A stretch of 64,000 nt of DNA, from the NCBI GenBank assembly GCA_004565275.1, contig SDOX01000019.1:182340-246339 (forward strand), given 5' to 3'. The DNA is from Nannochloropsis salina CCMP1776 (taxonomy: Eukaryota > Sar > Eustigmatophyceae > Eustigmatales > Monodopsidaceae). This document shows, in pieces, positions 2,649-45,292 of this stretch. Each line of letters begins with the position of its first letter. Positions within the stretch are counted from its first letter, which is position 1. Made by a program: the position numbers and the translations under genes. The notes under the pieces are model-generated. The model worked only from the letters and a program-made list of their open reading frames with translations. It searched no databases and was not told the DNA's origin.

Positions 2649-5312
2649 TCAAACCTTTCTACCTTCCCTTTTACCCCCTGCCTCCCTCGCCGTACTCCGT
2701 CCAAACGCCTCCTTCACCCGCCTCTGTGCTTCCAGCAGCTCCACTGCCAGATTTTGCCCCGTCGGCCCGTCTCCCTTGCGTGCTGCGTACTCTCTCCACG
2801 CTCTCCCCAGACCCTCCACCTCCTCCCACCCCACCTCCGTCTTCCGGCTCGCCTTCCCTCCCTCTCTCCTTGTCAGCAGGGCATGGGATAGGATCTCCAG
2901 CCCGCGGGGCAACAGGCCTCCCACGAGCGCACCCTCCGCCTCTGAACGCGTCACGAACAAGACGCCTCCCCCTCCTCCCGTCCTCCCTCCCTCCCTCCCT
3001 CCTACCAGCAACAATTGCAGACCCACCGCCAGCATCTCTGTTGGGGATTCGCTTTGGTTCAGTTCCGATACCAATTCCAGCTTCCGCGCCTGCAACATCT
3101 TTTTTTCTTTTTTTTTGTCCAATGTACGGGGGATAAAGTCCAGCGCCGGGGCGATTTCCGAAAGGTACAAGTTACTGACTTGCTCCAAAACCAAGGGGGC
3201 GGAAGCAGTCCCGCTGCCCTTGGAATGAGCCGCGGGCATAGAAGGGTGGGGACCCGGGGTCGGCGGGGCGTTGGCAGACTTTCTCTTCTTCTCGTCCTGA
3301 GTCTCCTTGACCACCAGGGTCCACAGGGCGGCCAGCGCGTCGCCGAGGGGGGACGGAAGGCGCGTCTTGAGCACATTACGTTGCTCGAGCGTGATAGAGG
3401 GGAAGTCCCAGGACGGTGAAGGCGGGGGGGAGGAGGAGGCGGGGGAAAAGGGCGGGAGAGAAGCCAGGGCCTGGTAGGGAACCTCGTACACCGCACTGGC
3501 CCATGTGGAGAGGAGGTGCGCAAGCTGAGCTCCACGCGACTTGAGGATGTACCGAGTCACCTCCTTGGCGTCCTTTTCGCACGCAAACGGGGTCGCCACC
3601 AACCCCTTGGCCAGGAGCTGCAGGGTCAAAATGGCCTCGTCCAACACCTTTTCCACTCGGTGTTGAACCGGCCCCGATGCCGCCCCCGCGCTCCCATGGA
3701 CGCCAGATCCTGCAAGCAGGGAGCTGACGTCCCACATCGGGGCCGAACCGGGACCCTCGCCCCCTCGTACGGTCTCTGCGACTGCCGTCGGCGCCAAGTC
3801 GTGGTATACGCGGGCGGCAAGGGCACCGGCAAGGGAGGGGAAAGCACCCAACGCAGGGTCCCATGCGCGGAGCCAGGCCTCGACGCCCTCCTCGGAGAAC
3901 AGAATAGCAACATCCTCGCTTGTTCTGACCCTTGCCGAAGCCCCTGGGGCACTGCTCGTGGCATTCCCGCCTGCTTCCCTCCCTCCCTCCTGCCCTCCCT
4001 CCCTCCCATTGGATTCATCACCCTTCCCCGTGCTCACCCGAGCGTCTTCTGTCCCCACCGCCTCTCCTCCCGCCTTAAACGCCCTCAAAGCAACCTCCTC
4101 TTGGCAAGGTGGGTCCGCTTCGTACAGACAAAGTCTGGCCTCCGCCTCCCGTTGCGCGTCCTGCAGGAAGCCCCGACTCACGACAAAGATGTCCTCGATC
4201 ACGACCACCGGAAGGTCCGCCCCCCGGCCGTAGGAGAGACACTCATTCAGCAACAGCGCTGCCCCCGAGGTCCTGGCAGGGGCGGCACGAGAAGAGAGGA
4301 TGGGGGGAAGAACGCTCGGAGCCTCCAACCAGGAGCGGCGGGCAACGCAGTCTTCCATGTGCCCTTCCAGGGCTCTGACTATGGCGGCATCCACAACCAG
4401 CTCCTTCCCCACCTGGATCGCGCCCGGAAAGGATTGCCGCAGGTACTCCAACGGCCGCCGCACTTGAAGTTTGTGCGCCCGGCTGCATTCCATGTACCCA
4501 TTCTGTCCAAAGAAACCCTCCATACAGGCACGTTGCATGCGCCTGAACACCGCAGGGACGTACTGCCGACCATTCAGGGCCCCGACAACCACCCCCTCCC
4601 GAACCAAAGCCGGCCACACGTCCTTTATCAAGCTTTCCTCCACGCTGTAACGCCCCGCCAGGTCTCCCAAAGTGATAGGCTGCGAGACTCCCGCCAATAC
4701 ACCGCGGATGCGGGCTTTCTGTCGCTCGTCGTATTCCGCTGTACACAAGGCACCGTTCCGAAGTTTCGCCGGCAGACACGCCTGTGAGAGACCCGGTTCC
4801 TTGGGCACAGCCCCCACATCACCCGCAACCCGCGCCTTGATTGCAGCTTCGGTAAGAGGTACGGGGAGCTTGAAGACACGTGCCGCAAGAGTGGAAATGG
4901 CGAGTCTACCGCCCGCCTCAGGAAGCATTTGGGTAAGGACCTCTGCGACCAGATCGTCAAGGTACCAGGCGGCTATCAACTCCCCACCCGAAAGCAGGCA
5001 GCCGCCCTCCAGATCCTCCTCCACAATGCGCGCGGCGGCCCTTTGGATGTGAACCATGTCCACGTTCAACAGAGGCCGTACGTCAGCGAGGGCAAGTCGG
5101 CCCCCCGCAGACAACAACTCATCCCGGAGCTCTAAAAGAAGTTGCTCGGGGGTAAGAATTTCTTTGCCGTCGGAAGTGTAGATGACGTCGAGCCTACCCA
5201 ATTTACACAGCTTCACGACGATTTCAACGCAGTTTCTTTCGCTCAGGCAATGTGAGGTGTCTTCTGCTTGCACGGCCACAAGCTCGCGTTGAAGGGCCAA
5301 AATTTCATCCAT
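2649..5312 (-). CDS. UFL1: UFL1, UFM1-protein E3 ligase
   Basis: E3 ligase that transfers the ubiquitin-like modifier UFM1, known in animals and plants to act at the ER, on ribosomal protein uL24 among others, with the adaptor DDRGK1. A single exon encodes 887 aa. The N-terminal half aligns by eye with human UFL1: LSERNCVEIVVKL, TSDGKEILTPEQLLLELRDE, the NVDMVHI segment, the KARIRG motif and FFGQNGYMEC. The frame stays open 18 codons upstream of the ATG at 5312, but that extension begins with TTG. The ATG (MDEILALQREL) matches the family start. The middle and 3' part carry glycine/arginine/glutamate-rich tracts (about residues 440-460 and 810-825) encoded by GGGA/CCCT microsatellites, and a lysine-rich KKKEKK stretch. 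These are absent from animal UFL1 and look like microsatellite expansions inside coding sequence. The C-terminal third is much less conserved. Confidence 0.9.
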   Translation of the reverse strand: MDEILALQRELVAVQAEDTSHCLSERNCVEIVVKLCKLGRLDVIYTSDGKEILTPEQLLLELRDELLSAGGRLALADVRPLLNVDMVHIQRAAARIVEEDLEGGCLLSGGELIAAWYLDDLVAEVLTQMLPEAGGRLAISTLAARVFKLPVPLTEAAIKARVAGDVGAVPKEPGLSQACLPAKLRNGALCTAEYDERQKARIRGVLAGVSQPITLGDLAGRYSVEESLIKDVWPALVREGVVVGALNGRQYVPAVFRRMQRACMEGFFGQNGYMECSRAHKLQVRRPLEYLRQSFPGAIQVGKELVVDAAIVRALEGHMEDCVARRSWLEAPSVLPPILSSRAAPARTSGAALLLNECLSYGRGADLPVVVIEDIFVVSRGFLQDAQREAEARLCLYEADPPCQEEVALRAFKAGGEAVGTEDARVSTGKGDESNGREGGQEGGREAGGNATSSAPGASARVRTSEDVAILFSEEGVEAWLRAWDPALGAFPSLAGALAARVYHDLAPTAVAETVRGGEGPGSAPMWDVSSLLAGSGVHGSAGAASGPVQHRVEKVLDEAILTLQLLAKGLVATPFACEKDAKEVTRYILKSRGAQLAHLLSTWASAVYEVPYQALASLPPFSPASSSPPPSPSWDFPSITLEQRNVLKTRLPSPLGDALAALWTLVVKETQDEKKRKSANAPPTPGPHPSMPAAHSKGSGTASAPLVLEQVSNLYLSEIAPALDFIPRTLDKKKEKKMLQARKLELVSELNQSESPTEMLAVGLQLLLVGGREGGRTGGGGGVLFVTRSEAEGALVGGLLPRGLEILSHALLTRREGGKASRKTEVGWEEVEGLGRAWREYAARKGDGPTGQNLAVELLEAQRRVKEAFGRSTAREAGGKREGRKV

Positions 5313-5579
5313 TGGCAAGGTTCGGGCTTTGACGGATGAACTCAACGCAGCAATGTATGCGCCCAATGCTTGGTTGGAAAGGTGTCAACAAGGGTGACGT
5401 GCTTGGGCATACCAACCATGACGGTCTGTCGAGGCAGCTTTACTCCGATCCGTAGGCATGCCGGCAAGGACTGGGAGTAGGGAAAGTATTAGTTCTAAGG
5501 CTCTTTCCAGAGTAAAGGGTGATGACAATATCGACGTCCCATCCCTTCTACATGCCAAGCCTCGAGGTTCTCACAAAGC
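5313..5579. other. UFL1 upstream region
   Basis: Region between the UFL1 start and the tandem array. No gene is recognised. It probably contains the UFL1 promoter (reading leftwards). Confidence 0.4.
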
Positions 5580-6135
5580 AAGGTCGCTTACAAGGCGTTG
5601 ACGAGGGAGGTGTAATCGAGTGCTTCCGTAAAGCTAGGTAAAAGATGTGGAGGATTCAGTTGATGAGCAAAGCGTGATAGAATGCTTCCCTCAAGCTTCA
5701 TAAAAAGCAAGGTGTGCACGTTTAAGTTGCTGAGGTAGGCGTGATGGAGTGCTTCCCTCAAGCTTCGCAAAAAGCAAGGTGTCGCAGTTTAAGTTGATGA
5801 GGGAGGCGTGATGGAGTGCTTCCCTAAAACTAAGTAACAAGCAAGGTGTGCACGTTTTAAGTTGCTGAGGGAGGCGTGATGAGTGCCTCCGTACAGCATC
5901 GTAAAATGCAAGGTGTGTGCTTTTAAGTTGCTGGGGTAGGCGTGATGGAGTGCTTCCGTAGAGCTTCATAGTAAGCAAGGTACCTCAATTAAAGCTGCTG
6001 AGGGAGGCGTGATGGAGTGCTTCCGTAGAGTTTCCTAGTAAGCAAGGTACCTCAATTAAAGCTGCTGAGGGAGGCGCGATGGAGTGCTTCCGTAGAGGTT
6101 CATAGTAGGCAAGGTATTGCGACGATGTTGCTGAG
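5580..6135 (+). repeat. Tandem array of ~67-bp units abutting tRNA-Val
   Basis: About eight head-to-tail units of 64-67 bp. Units start AGGT near 5580, 5710 and 5777 (67-bp spacing between the last two) and share the core GAGGGAGGCGTGATGGAGTG followed by CTTCC and an A/T-rich stretch ending AAGCA. The last two complete units are nearly identical, and the leftmost two are the most diverged. The ninth unit is cut short because its core becomes the 5' end of the tRNA-Val gene at 6136. The first 20 bases of the tRNA match the repeat core at 17 of 20 positions. Open frames on the minus strand across the array (for example 5691-5978) are a by-product of the periodicity. No unit contains the anticodon arm or T arm of a tRNA. 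Confidence 0.88.
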
Positions 6136-6208
6136 GGAGGCGTGGTGTAGTGGTTATCACGTTTGTTTTACGTACAAAAGGTCGAGGGTTCAATCCCCTC
6201 CGCTTCTA
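6136..6208 (+). tRNA. tRNA-Val (anticodon UAC)
   Basis: A 73-nt cloverleaf without an intron. The acceptor stem 6136-6142 (GGAGGCG) pairs with 6201-6207 (CGCTTCT) and includes two G-U pairs. The discriminator is A6208. The D arm is TGGTGTAGTGGTTATCAC. The anticodon stem TTTGT/ACAAA encloses the loop TTTACGT, giving anticodon TAC (UAC, valine). The variable loop is AGGTC, and the T stem GAGGG/CCCTC holds loop TTCAATC. The D arm and flanking bases match the standard eukaryotic tRNA-Val pattern. The A box (TGGTGTAGTGG) and B box (GGTTCAATCC) needed by RNA polymerase III are both present. The 5' end is continuous with the upstream tandem array. Confidence 0.93.
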
Positions 6209-6211
6209 CAC

Positions 6212-6216
6212 TTTTT
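6212..6216 (+). terminator. RNA polymerase III oligo-T terminator
   Basis: Five T residues begin 4 nt after the tRNA discriminator base, the usual position and form of a Pol III stop. Confidence 0.8.
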
Positions 6217-6754
6217 GCGGCCCCTCCTCCAACGGTGGCAGAGACCCTAGACATGCGCTGTCATCGTGTTGGTTGACGTAGGAACCGTCCGTGCGGGTGT
6301 GGGGTTTCAATGCTGTTGTGTTTTTTTGGGGCGGGTGTTTATTTGACGAAGGGCGGAAGCGGCGGAGGGGCCGGTGGCTCATGCAATGGCCTTGCCCTCC
6401 CCTACTCTCTTAAGCGTGACCGCAGAAAGACCGCGCGTCTTCGCGTCTTCGGGACTAGTCCGTCTCCAACTGAGCGTGTTATATTCTCGCGGTCCTGCCG
6501 TGGTTGACTTCGTCGTAGGGAGAGATTTCCACTTGCATGTGTTTTGTCGACCTCGCATCTAGCAAGAGCGATTATCATGCGTTCTCATCCCTTCCCAAAA
6601 TGCTCATTGACCAGACTCCTCTCGGATTTCCTCCCTAATTTTCATTTTTTGTACAATTCACTTGAAAATAGGCTTGGGACCGCGCTAGTTGCTCTGGAAG
6701 ACGGGCACACCAGGGGGACGGCGGAAGGAAGTTAGCTCTTAAGCCGACCCCAGT
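6217..6754. other. Upstream region of the gamma-CA-like gene
   Basis: No convincing gene. Small open frames at 6310-6562 lack any family resemblance. It probably contains the promoter and leader of the gene starting at 6755. Confidence 0.45.
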
Positions 6755-7591
6755 ATGACGGGACCTATTCTCAGTGCGTTTGGAGCCGCCGCCCGGGCTG
6801 CAGGAAGGGCCTTTGAAAACGCGGGCAAGCTTTTGGAAGTGGCTCCCTACGTAGAACATCTGGCACCCTCCACTAAGGTATTGTCCTTCGGGGGTAAGGC
6901 ACCCGCCATCCATGAAACAGCCTTCGTCGCCCCCAGCGCCAGCATCATCGGGAACGTGCAAGTGGGTAAAGGCGCTTCAGTCTGGTACGGGGCCACGCTG
7001 CGCGGAGACGTCCAGAGCATCACGGTTGGAGAGCAAACGACTATTGGAGACAGGGCAGTGGTGCACGTGGCCAAGCTGAAAGGAGACGCTCCTACTAAAA
7101 TTGGGAATCGGGTGACAGTTGGGCCCCGCGCGGTCATCCACGCATGCACCCTGGAGGACGAATCGACGGTAGGAGCTGGGGCGCAAGTCCTTGACAAGGC
7201 AGTGGTCAAGAGCCATGCCGCGTTGGCGCCTGGGGCAGTCTTAACTCCTGGAAAAACAGTCCCCTCCGGACACCTGTGGGCGGGTGTGCCTGCCAAATTC
7301 GTGCGGGAGCTCACGGCGGAAGAAATAGCAAACATCAAGCGGGAAGCCGTGGCATCCTTCGAGCTGGCCACCGTGCACAAGGCGGAGACTAGCAAAGACT
7401 ACGTGCAGGTGGAGGCGGACGAGGAGGCGTGGATAGACAAGAAACAACGGTCACCGAGCTACTGGCCACGGCTCAAGGACCCGAAGGACCCCGCAGAGAT
7501 ACCCGGATTTGGTGTGCCTGGGCGCATCTTCAACCACCCTTTGACTGTACCGTTGCCGGAGGGCTCGGATCGTTCGGGCGCGTCGAAGTGA
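6755..7591 (+). CDS. Gamma-carbonic-anhydrase-like protein (mitochondrial complex I type)
   Basis: A single exon encodes 278 aa with the left-handed beta-helix hexapeptide repeats of gamma carbonic anhydrases (residues about 50-190: FVAPSASIIGNVQVGKGASV and onward). The N-terminal amphipathic stretch (FGAAARAAGRAFENAGKLLE) resembles that of plant mitochondrial gamma-CAs, which sit on the matrix face of respiratory complex I. Of the three zinc-binding histidines of the family, the first (VVHVAKLKG) and third (AVIHAC) are present. The second, in the family motif VGH, is proline here (VTVGPRAVIHAC). It is therefore probably a structural, CAL-like subunit or an enzyme with altered metal binding (inference). 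The C-terminal tail after about residue 200 is long and charged. Complex I assembly is the best guess for its role. Catalytic activity is doubtful. Confidence 0.88.
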   Translation: MTGPILSAFGAAARAAGRAFENAGKLLEVAPYVEHLAPSTKVLSFGGKAPAIHETAFVAPSASIIGNVQVGKGASVWYGATLRGDVQSITVGEQTTIGDRAVVHVAKLKGDAPTKIGNRVTVGPRAVIHACTLEDESTVGAGAQVLDKAVVKSHAALAPGAVLTPGKTVPSGHLWAGVPAKFVRELTAEEIANIKREAVASFELATVHKAETSKDYVQVEADEEAWIDKKQRSPSYWPRLKDPKDPAEIPGFGVPGRIFNHPLTVPLPEGSDRSGASK

Positions 7592-23144: not shown

Positions 23145-25323
23145 ATGAGCCATTCCTTCAGACATTGGTTCGGGAGCAGTACCGGACATCGTCTAAATTC
23201 TAGCATTCGAGCCGCTTTTCTTTTCATCGTCGGGGCCTTGGCCTTGATTATATCCGTCAACTGCGTCTTCGGCCGGGAGCCATTGGTGCTCCGCGCCTCC
23301 TCTTCCCACGTCCGCGGTGGAGATGAAGGAGGAAACGGAGGGATGCAAATGCTGCAGCACGACGGTCGACAGGTGGAGAGTCATGAGCCAGTGCTGGTTT
23401 CTGAGGAGCTGCGGAGAACGATCAAAGAAGAAGTCCGTGCGGAGATTTTGGCGGCCATGGCCGAAGAGGAAAAAAAGCGAAGACAGGAAGCCCCACATGC
23501 CCGGCCCGGGACACTGGGGGACGGAGAGCGGACGGTAAGCCGACAGGAGCAGCTAGGACAGCTCTACCCGCCTACGGCCACCCTGAGTGAGGGCCAGCGG
23601 AGGCGGATCCTTGTGACGGGGGGGGCGGGCTTTGTGGGCTCCCATCTGGTCGACCGCCTGATGGCCGAGGGGCACGAGGTGATCGTGGTGGACAACATGT
23701 TCACGGGGCGGAAGAAGAACGTGGCGCACTGGATCGGGCACCCCCACTTCATGCTCATTGTCCACGACGTGGTGGAGCCTATCCTCCTGGAGGTCGACCA
23801 GATCTACCACCTGGCCTGCCCCGCCTCCCCCCCCCACTACCAGTACAACCCGATTAAGACGATCAAGACCAGCACCATGGGCACCTTGAACATGCTCGGC
23901 CTCGCCAAGCGGGTCCGGGCCCGCATGCTCCTGACCTCCACCAGCGAGGTGTACGGCGACCCGCAAATCCACCCCCAGCCCGAGTCCTATTGGGGCAACG
24001 TGAATCCAATCGGGCCCCGGGCGTGCTACGACGAGGGGAAGCGGGTGGCGGAGACGATGATGTACGCGTACAGGTCGCAGGGCGGGGAGGGGGACTCGAG
24101 CATGGAGGTGCGGGTCGCCAGGATTTTCAACACGTTTGGGCCGCGGATGCATCCCAACGACGGACGGGTGGTCAGGTACGGAGGGAGACCGGGACGAAGA
24201 TGGGAAGGAAGGAGGTGGAGAGGGTCATCAGGGGAGGGAGGGCGCCAGACCGTTTCGTCAATTCTTCCCGAGATGGGGTGGTCGTGTCTCACGTCTTGTC
24301 GGTCGTGCCCATGATTGCCTTCCACCCCTTTCCTCTGGCTCGGACGCGATGCCTCCGCAGCAATTTTATTATCCAGGCGCTTCAAGGGAAGAACATCACC
24401 ATCTACGGCAAAGGAAGGCAGACACGGTCTTTCCAGTACGTGGACGACCTGGTCTCGGGCCTCATGAAGCTCATGAACAGGTAAGGACGTAGACAGAGGA
24501 GGGGAGCGGAGGAGGGGGCATGGAGGAGAGGACAAAGGCGGTCCCACAGGCGGCAAGGAGAGAGAGAGTGCGCAGTCGGATTACGACGCTGTCAACCCCA
24601 CTGGTATTGACCTCCACCTTTTTGCCTATCTCCCGTGTTTCTCGTACCTCGTATTTCTCCCTGGCAGCGACTACGAACTGCCCGTCAACCTAGGGAACCC
24701 CGACGAATACTCCGTCAAGGACTTCGCCTTGCTTGTGCGGGTGAGTGAGGAGGGGAGACGAGGAAGGAAGTGGGAGGGAGGGAGGGAAGGCGGGTGTCAA
24801 GATGGGTGCTCACCAGGGAAAATCTACAGACCTAAAAGTCTAAAAGAATCGTGCCCATTCCGAAAGCCAAAACCACGTTCTCAACGTTCCTTTTCGGCCT
24901 CCATCAGCATCTCATCTTTCCCCATTCTGTCTCTTCAAACCACAGGAGCTGGTCAGGAACATGGACAGCCAAATAGTGCACTTACCGGCGACCAAAGATG
25001 ACCCCGCGAAGCGCAAACCTGATATCACTACCGCCAAAAAAGAATTAGGTTGGGAACCAACGGTGTCGGTGCGGGACGGGCTGGCCAAGACCATCGAGTA
25101 TTTCCGAAAAGAACTGGAAGAGACGGTACGTCGACCACCATGCCTGCTCGCTCGAATCACTCTGTGTCCAGGTAGTGTATTTTAGACGACTTAGCAGCTT
25201 GACAGAGACGGCCTTGAATGCTCGCAGGCTTATCGAATCCGAAACGCTCCCAAACCTATGTCGAGTCACGACGCCTCGGTCACGCCCTTTCCTTTTCCTT
25301 TTCGCCATTTCGTGAAAATTTGA
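23145..25323 (+). CDS. UXS: UDP-glucuronate decarboxylase (UDP-xylose synthase), membrane-anchored
   Basis: Converts UDP-glucuronate to UDP-xylose with bound NAD+, normally in the Golgi lumen. Exons 23145-24175, 24361-24480, 24668-24740, 24946-25125 and 25228-25323 join in frame to 499 aa. Residues about 20-42 form a single hydrophobic signal anchor after a short basic head, typical of type II Golgi UXS. A polar stem follows to about residue 145. The catalytic domain has [42 protein letters not shown], the YxxxK motif [41 protein letters not shown] and AKKELGWEP. The last exon ([10 protein letters not shown] then to a stop within a minisatellite) is the least certain. If the preceding donor is not used, translation stops in the intron after about 20 further codons. 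With NRS/ER it supplies donors for wall or glycoprotein sugars. Confidence 0.9.
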
Positions 25324-25394
25324 CAGGGCGAGATCACGCCCTTTCCTTTTCCTTCTCGCCATTTCGTGAACATTTGACAGGGCGAGATCACGCC
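25281..25394 (+). repeat. 54-bp minisatellite overlapping UXS last exon
   Basis: Two tandem copies of a 54-bp unit (25281-25334 and 25335-25388) plus six bases of a third. They begin CACGCCCTTTCCTTTTCCTT and contain CGCCATTTCGTGAA and TTGACAGGGCGAGAT. The two copies differ at only about two positions. The inferred UXS stop codon (25321-25323) lies in the first copy. Confidence 0.88.
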
Positions 25395-44224: not shown

Positions 44225-45292
44225 CTGAGACAGCTTTCATGTGATTCGTACAAGGGAATCAGCAAAATCCAAGCAGTCTGAGGTTGGTGTAAATATATAC
44301 GCACGTGTTTATAAATATGGATTGTGTACAGACAAAGGTAATAAAAGATGAAATGCATGGATCGAGGGCATAGATGGGACCTCTTTCCTACGTTGGCAAG
44401 GACTTCAAGGTGCTGAGTAAACCATATCTGTGAGAGTGCCGAGAGAGATTTGTGACAAACGTGTGGAAGAAAAACGAAAAGAGTGTCTTTCTTAATCACC
44501 TCTTTTCTGCATTGGGAAAAAATGATCTCCAACGTATGATTTGTAAATAGTGATGCAAATATTCTGTTTACTTCTCATCATTTCTGTATGGGCGAAATGT
44601 AAAGCTTTCGCGTAGGTTGAATTTCTGTATGGGCGAAATGTAAAGCTTTCGCGTAGTTTGAATCTCCGTTACTTGATGTAACGGCTAATTGACCGGTAAG
44701 AACTCGGGAGATTCGGGGGCCTCTGCTTTTCTATTGGGGGAGCTTCCGCAAATTTCGCTGGTCACTTGGGACGGGCGAGACAAAATGAAACCGAAAGCAT
44801 GTCGAGGTGCAATCATTCTCTTGGTTTTCTTATAGTTTGTGCGCAAGATCACAAAGCTCCTCAGTGATTGTCGTGGGAAGAAGCTCCGCCTGAGAAAGGA
44901 GAGTGACAACGCCGTTTCGATTTGAACGCGGTTGGGTTTCTGTTTCTCCGGCACTTGCGATACGACCATCTTTCCCGTTTTACCTTGCTCCCTCGCCATG
45001 CGTTTTCGTTCGCACATGCAACTGTCGATCTGGTACGCAGCGCAATGAAACTCTGTGTGTGCGTTCAATAAAGACGTGGCCCCGGTCACTATTCAGTCGC
45101 CATCGACGTATTGAAGATGTTTGTGGTAGATCTATAATTATAGCTTTCGCTTCTCATCTAAAGGAAGCCTTACATACTTCTTGGTTCCGGTAAAAGATTC
45201 TGTCGAAGTGATTAAGTCGATAACACACACCGCTTACAACTCACAAACAGCCAAAGAACACTTCTACTCTTACCACCACACCTAAATTGAAC
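44225..45292. other. Intergenic with 41-bp duplication
   Basis: About 1.1 kb upstream of the secreted alanine-rich protein gene. It holds a tandem duplication at 44581-44662 (separate entry). A minus-strand 134-codon frame (44685-45089) shows no family resemblance and is not called. Confidence 0.45.
44581..44662 (+). repeat. Tandem 41-bp duplication
   Basis: Two adjacent copies (44581-44621, 44622-44662) containing GTATGGGCGAAATGTAAAGC and CTTTCGCGTAG. They are nearly identical, so the duplication is recent. Confidence 0.9.

Follow-up and report, generated by a model that had tools for sequence, protein, structure and literature searches.

A tandem array beside a nuclear tRNA-Val(UAC) gene of Nannochloropsis salina, most likely an old minisatellite seeded by the tRNA

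Introduction

In Entamoeba, short tandem repeats (STRs) are linked to tRNA genes, and the portion of the paper drawn on here invokes short tandem duplications from chance mutation and strand slippage (PMC2652664). The human tRNA VNTR at 1q23.3 is likewise a tandem repeat with tRNA sequence, as is the array described here; according to the portion of that source used here, its units are 7.3 kb long, in contrast to units of 67 bp with about 20 bases of tRNA at the present locus (PMC4041453). Within the excerpts consulted of the literature on tRNA-gene repeats, Nannochloropsis tRNA genes and Pol III, no case was seen of a nuclear tRNA whose own 5′ end had given rise to a repeat.

The present locus lies in a stretch of 64,000 nucleotides (64 kb; the window) from N. 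salina CCMP1776, carried by contig C52 of a 26.5 Mb genome assembled in 103 contigs. An earlier note on this DNA had described units that lie head to tail and merge into a tRNA-Val(UAC) gene, each carrying a degenerate copy of the tRNA 5′ end. The analysis below examines the unit, its history and its capacity to act as a promoter, and compares them with the other nuclear tRNA genes.

Materials and methods

In a genome search with RF00005, 63 of 582 candidates were scored and 52 tRNAs listed, of which the 16 outside the organelle-sized contigs C102 and C103 were taken as nuclear, tRNA-Val(UAC) included. This nuclear sample was enlarged by two genes from ARAGORN and one more from Rfam. The ARAGORN call for tRNA-Thr(ggt), with its figure of a 709-base intron, has a wrong 5′ end, and Rfam places the gene at L036 4932-5014. 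Three sets of other genes result: the 17-gene tests (TRF, background slots and core scan) include the wrong-end tRNA-Thr(ggt), the 16-gene motif search omits it, and the 18 genes with sound ends are those 16, the Rfam tRNA-Thr and the gene at L035 4262-4380. The motif search was a Gibbs search of the 70 bp upstream of the 16 other nuclear tRNAs (L032-L044), with tRNA-Val(UAC) left out.

The B-box pattern has 229 matches in the genome, compared with 169 for its reversed control. Among the 100 matches listed, 7 fall in loci already covered, and ARAGORN found no tRNA in 60 places (251-base windows; contigs C1-C47), a hint that the nuclear set of tRNA genes is small. Two tRNA-like stretches at L034 4445-4640, with B boxes GGTTCGACTCC and GGTTCGATTCC and ends that are complementary by eye, are called by neither ARAGORN nor Rfam; they are perhaps intron-bearing or rearranged tRNA genes.

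Results

The left neighbour of the array is UFL1 (minus strand, ORF 2649-5366; Pfam E3_UFM1_ligase, 3e-66), and its right neighbour encodes a hexapeptide-repeat protein (plus strand, ORF 6755-7591; Pfam Hexapep, 6e-16). TRF reports a tandem repeat at 5603-6152 with a period of 67 and 8.3 copies, and the register is kept across eight units of 62-68 bp each (5603-6132) that continue into tRNA-Val(UAC) (Table 1), so that the head-to-tail array built on the tRNA's own 5′ end is as first described. With this period, the array has the head-to-tail arrangement of a minisatellite, whose units are roughly 10-100 bp long. The tRNA-Val (tac) gene, which scores 63.6 bits against RF00005, is the only tRNA that ARAGORN finds in the window. 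At the left edge, the profile match to a partial unit has an E of 0.12 in 300 kb and of 0.00036 if the search is restricted to 940 b around both edges. Elsewhere in the window, TRF finds two further near-perfect tandem duplications of about 2 copies each, at 25280-25394 (period 54) and 44580-44663 (period 41).

Table 1. Coordinates of the array and of the adjoining tRNA gene within the window
Feature	Position	Strand	Basis
Partial unit, degenerate left edge of array	5560-5602	+	Profile match 5560-5585, 10.8 bits
u1, most diverged unit	5603-5664	+	TRF; profile match 5603-5644, 25.3 bits, E 3.7e-6
u2	5665-5731	+	Register alignment, profile match
TATA-like box TTCATAAAAA in u2, -38 of next unit start	5697-5706	+	Motif score
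u3	5732-5798	+	Register alignment, profile match
u4	5799-5866	+	Register alignment, profile match
u5	5867-5932	+	Register alignment, profile match
u6	5933-5999	+	Register alignment, profile match
TATA-like box TTCATAGTAA in u6, -38	5965-5974	+	Motif score
u7, 94% identical to u6	6000-6066	+	Register alignment, pairwise identity
TATA-like box TTCCTAGTAA in u7, -38	6032-6041	+	Motif score
u8, tail = real upstream region of tRNA-Val(UAC)	6067-6132	+	Register alignment, profile match
TATA-like box TTCATAGTAG, -37 of tRNA-Val	6099-6108	+	Score 6.38, highest of array sites
tRNA-Val(UAC), first ~20 bases = start of ninth, truncated unit	6136-6209	+	ARAGORN, Rfam
B box of tRNA-Val(UAC), intact; A box also intact	6187-6197	+	Consensus match
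T5, probable Pol III terminator	6212-6216	+	Sequence

In register, tRNA bases 1-20 match u1 to u8 at 14, 12, 16, 17, 15, 16, 17 and 16 of 20 positions, respectively. The unit register inside the tRNA reads GGAGGCGTG(G/A)TG(T/G)AGTG(G/C)TT, and GAG directly 5′ of tRNA-Val(UAC) is part of the unit, confirming in register that the bases just before the tRNA belong to it. The chance of a 17/20 match at a fixed register is about 3e-8 to 5e-7, and the best match of the tRNA 20-mer outside the array is 15/20, at two places in the window (both strands). Moreover, the 18 other nuclear tRNA genes agree with the unit at 8-13 of 20 positions over their first 20 bases, and at 11-13 when any of their 20-mers is allowed. 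When the tRNA is aligned locally with single units against a shuffled-unit control (u2-u8 tested), u3-u8 are significant (p 0.014 or less) and u2 is not (p 0.23). Given the register match and the chance, window, other-tRNA and shuffle controls, the homology of the unit to the tRNA 5′ end is real and is specific to tRNA-Val(UAC) among the tRNA genes tested; the 17/20 match claimed in the earlier note holds up against both shuffled units and other tRNAs.

The divergence of the units bears on how the array grew. Five differences from the tRNA are common to all eight units (raw positions 10, 13, 18, 21 and 22), two of them in the A box. Inter-unit identity is 0.79 between neighbours (lag 1) and drops to 0.62 at lag 7, and u1 has the lowest mean identity to the other units (0.65). 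The rise in identity towards the tRNA that had been noted earlier is a weak trend (Spearman 0.60, p 0.11, 8 units), and u8, which lies beside the tRNA (16/20), is no closer to it than u4 or u7 (17/20). The proposed growth from the tRNA end is not supported, given the five shared differences, which imply that amplification began from a diverged copy, or that homogenisation took place between units and left the tRNA aside. Together with the fall of identity with lag, the near-identity of u6 and u7, and the diverged u1 and decayed edge, the shared differences fit a diverged founder that may have been amplified by local duplication, and not repeated fresh copying from the tRNA. In this one genome, tRNA-Val(UAC) would be the source of the array and not its product, a polarity deduced from the canonical A box of the gene (0 mismatches, compared with two or more in every unit) and from known tRNA-Val sequences.

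Across the 26.5 Mb genome, the searches place the array at a single locus. The 631-base DNA query found only itself, one unit as query found no place besides the array, and tRNA-Val(UAC) alone found one copy, all three counts being lower bounds. When up to 3 mismatches are allowed, a 19-base core is matched at 17 places in the genome (reversed control, 7), with 7 in the array and 10 elsewhere, the latter carrying 2-3 mismatches each. The unit profile, run against 300 kb (window plus loci, overlaps included), found nothing off-array better than E 0.044. The DNA and pattern searches thus find no copy of the unit beyond the array, and a dispersed tRNA-derived repeat (SINE) is disfavoured by the lack of dispersed copies, with 10 off-array pattern matches compared with 7 in the control. 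Exact tRNA parts of 37 and 26 bases have 0 matches in bacterial/archaeal genome contigs and viral contigs. Further, a leader of the same type, which the earlier note had raised for other tRNA genes, is found at none of those tested: in the 900 bp upstream, 18/18 other nuclear tRNA genes carry no copy of their initial 20 bases with at least 15/20 matches (best 10-13/20). TRF on 17 other tRNA upstream regions reports one tandem repeat, 2 copies of 24 bp at tRNA-Val(cac).

The Gibbs search shows that the unit contains more than the tRNA 5′ end. The learned motif, TTNATA, is located between -39 and -36 in 11 of the 16 other nuclear tRNA genes; in the remaining five, the site is at -47 and -31 in two (Lys, Met) and elsewhere in three. 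Two held-out genes have their best site at -37 (score 5.5, L036) and at -39 (2.6, weak). Of the 9 starts of units or tRNA in the array, 6 have their best TTNATA site at -38/-37 and 4 have a site scoring at least 3.99, the real tRNA gene being included in both counts. With scores averaged over eight starts (5668-6136), the top-scoring slot among 67 positions is the one that begins at -38. The score at the tRNA-Val box is reached by 0.18% of background slots. Because a TATA-like box stands at a gene-like distance from a copy of the tRNA 5′ end, the unit corresponds to about -47 to +20 of the gene, comprising the upstream box, the start region and the tRNA 5′ end with its A-box region. The earlier suggestion of an amplified promoter segment is therefore supported, with an upstream TATA-like box that the note did not contain. 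As a byproduct, a TATA-like upstream element is defined for the nuclear tRNA genes of this alga.

The A box has the consensus TRGYNNARNGG and the B box the consensus GGTTCRANYCC, while a B box without a Pol III gene is an extra-TFIIIC (ETC) site. Against this consensus, 8/8 units show at least 2 mismatches in the A box, and tRNA-Val(UAC) shows 0. A B box with up to 2 mismatches is absent from 5560 to 6135 (the tRNA has 0 mismatches at 6187), which speaks against an ETC site in the units and agrees with the original statement that they have no B box. The TATA slot has 13 changes in 10 columns, compared with 63 in the 68 columns of the whole unit; per column, there are 1.3 changes in the TATA slot, 0.6 in the 20 tRNA-derived columns, 0.5 in AAGCAAGGTG and 2.2 in the spacer. 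Four-T runs occur within u4 and u5 (5855, 5921). Because the A box is broken, the B box is missing and the TATA slot varies among units, the units do not resemble functional promoters, and units 1-8 are improbable as a multi-copy working array of Pol III promoters. A decoy for TFIIIC, as proposed before, is weakened by the same two box results and by a TATA slot that is more variable than the tRNA-derived part.

The array could still act as a functional leader whose repeated TATA-like boxes and tRNA starts serve as loading sites for TFIIIB or as nucleosome-positioning elements and thereby aid expression of an apparently single-copy tRNA-Val(UAC). The single BLAST copy of this gene (a lower bound), the 6 of 9 starts with a best site at -38/-37 and the partial conservation of the unit point that way; however, the TATA slot varies more than the unit average, good boxes precede only 4 of 9 starts, none of the 18 other nuclear tRNA genes tested has upstream copies of its own 5′ end, and the tRNA-Val(cac) repeat is the only one among 17 other upstream regions. 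Such a leader has a small chance of being correct. A similarly slim chance attaches to the reading that the cassettes are selected as an upstream platform of the single-copy gene, a multi-copy leader of TATA boxes and core elements whose core GGAGTGCTTCC is also used at tRNA-Ala(UGC), and which tunes Pol III output or shields UFL1. If true, a tRNA gene would here be controlled from outside by an element made of repeats.

Changes are spread unevenly along the unit. The core (GGAGTGCTTCC plus AAGCAAGGT) has 13 changes in 25 columns, compared with 50 in 43 for the rest of the unit, with permutation p values of 0.0074 (8 units), 0.009 (u2-u8) and 0.0002 (u3-u8); taken as one contiguous cyclic block out of 68, it comes third, sixth and fourth in those three sets, which is weaker support. 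Similarly, AAGCAAGGTG has 5 changes in 10 columns, compared with 22 in a 10-column spacer, both segments having been picked after inspection with one column in common. Neutral decay alone does not predict this unevenness, and the two unusually conserved blocks may have a binding or structural role. At a tolerance of up to 2 mismatches, TGGAGTGCTTCCRTAGAG is matched 7 times in the genome, 4 of them in the array (control, 2). Its sole off-array match with up to 1 mismatch in the 26.5 Mb (17/18, reverse) is at L034 5129-5146 (C42:769128-769145), about 89-106 bp upstream of tRNA-Ala(UGC), and was found post hoc. The TATA region of tRNA-Ala(UGC) matches the unit at 15/18, which has little meaning, as this pattern has 55 matches (6 in the array) compared with 45 for the control.

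It is quite unlikely that the core forms a putative multi-site protein-binding array acting on chromatin or on the flanking Pol II genes, UFL1 and the hexapeptide-repeat gene. The conserved blocks, the array's place between UFL1 and the next gene, and the TGGAGTGCTTCCRTAGAG match at tRNA-Ala(UGC) would favour it, but GGAGTGCTTCC with up to 1 mismatch is present in the 300 bp upstream of only 1 of 17 other tRNA genes scanned, and that case was noticed post hoc. Transcription of the units as small hairpin RNAs with the stem GG-AGGCGU/GUGCUUCC is less probable again, and very unlikely overall. All but one of 64 cells keep the stem intact (Monte Carlo p 0.01-0.04, or 0.03-0.17 conditioned on stem changes), and the whole array folds mildly better than shuffles on the plus strand (z -2.41, 1/100 shuffles as good; -1.95 on the minus strand). 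However, the stem was derived from the same unit sequences that test it, most single units fold like their shuffles (z -2.1 to +0.4), 0 of 13 predicted pairs have changes on both sides in u2-u8, and the array has no Rfam family at gathering score. MiRNA-like and CRISPR-repeat Rfam matches were dismissed as below gathering score. A box C/D snoRNA, considered for GTGATGG and CTGA, was also rejected: 5300-6400 has no Rfam snoRNA match at E up to 5, and by eye no complementarity is seen beyond the boxes. Finally, decayed whole tRNAs from a dying cluster, already disfavoured and hardly credible despite a unit length of 67 close to the tRNA length of 74, are rejected as the origin of the unit by its tail, which in u2-u8 aligns with tRNA positions 21-74 no better than chance (shuffled units, p 0.53-0.96; shuffled tRNA, p 0.63-0.96) and has, as had been stated, no detectable tRNA remnant, and by the missing B box.

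Discussion

The array is most likely an old minisatellite seeded by the tRNA. More fully, it is probably a tRNA-seeded minisatellite, found once in the genome, whose unit is a promoter-plus-5′-end cassette and which persists as a by-product of repeat turnover. Homology and register indicate that a segment from about -47 to +20 of tRNA-Val(UAC) was duplicated in tandem, after which the extra copy diverged at five sites. The diverged copy may then have been amplified by local duplication, slippage or unequal exchange, because identity falls with distance and the differences are shared. Selection would have held the last cassette, with the real promoter and gene, canonical. Having no intact A box and no B box, the upstream cassettes most likely start no Pol III transcripts of their own and would mostly have been left behind by repeat turnover next to a Pol III gene.

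On this reading, the locus preserves a minisatellite alongside its source, in which a promoter-box and 5′-end segment was copied and the gene stands intact, in register, at the array end. Two questions can be put to it as a natural test: do tRNA genes provoke tandem duplication at their 5′ border, and do additional upstream Pol III boxes have any effect when internal boxes are missing?

Compared with Entamoeba, the array resembles the tRNA-linked STRs in that tandem repeats adjoin tRNA genes; the STRs differ in sitting between tRNA genes within tRNA gene arrays, in very A+T-rich DNA, and the portion of the paper drawn on here does not describe repeats from the tRNA's own 5′ end (PMC2652664). 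Type 2 Pol III promoters, in the portions of the sources used, have a TATA-like box upstream of internal boxes, here at about -38 from tRNA base 1, and units 1-8 differ from them in having no proper A box and no B box (PMC7279448, PMC10137851). With minisatellites that arise by slippage or unequal exchange, the array shares short head-to-tail units, identity that falls with distance and a decayed edge. Unlike minisatellites generally, its unit holds a Pol III upstream box and a tRNA 5′ end, and the array ends in register in the tRNA. What is new here is the TATA-like box (TTNATA), which before 6 of 9 starts of the array is positioned as in 11 of the 16 other nuclear tRNA genes.
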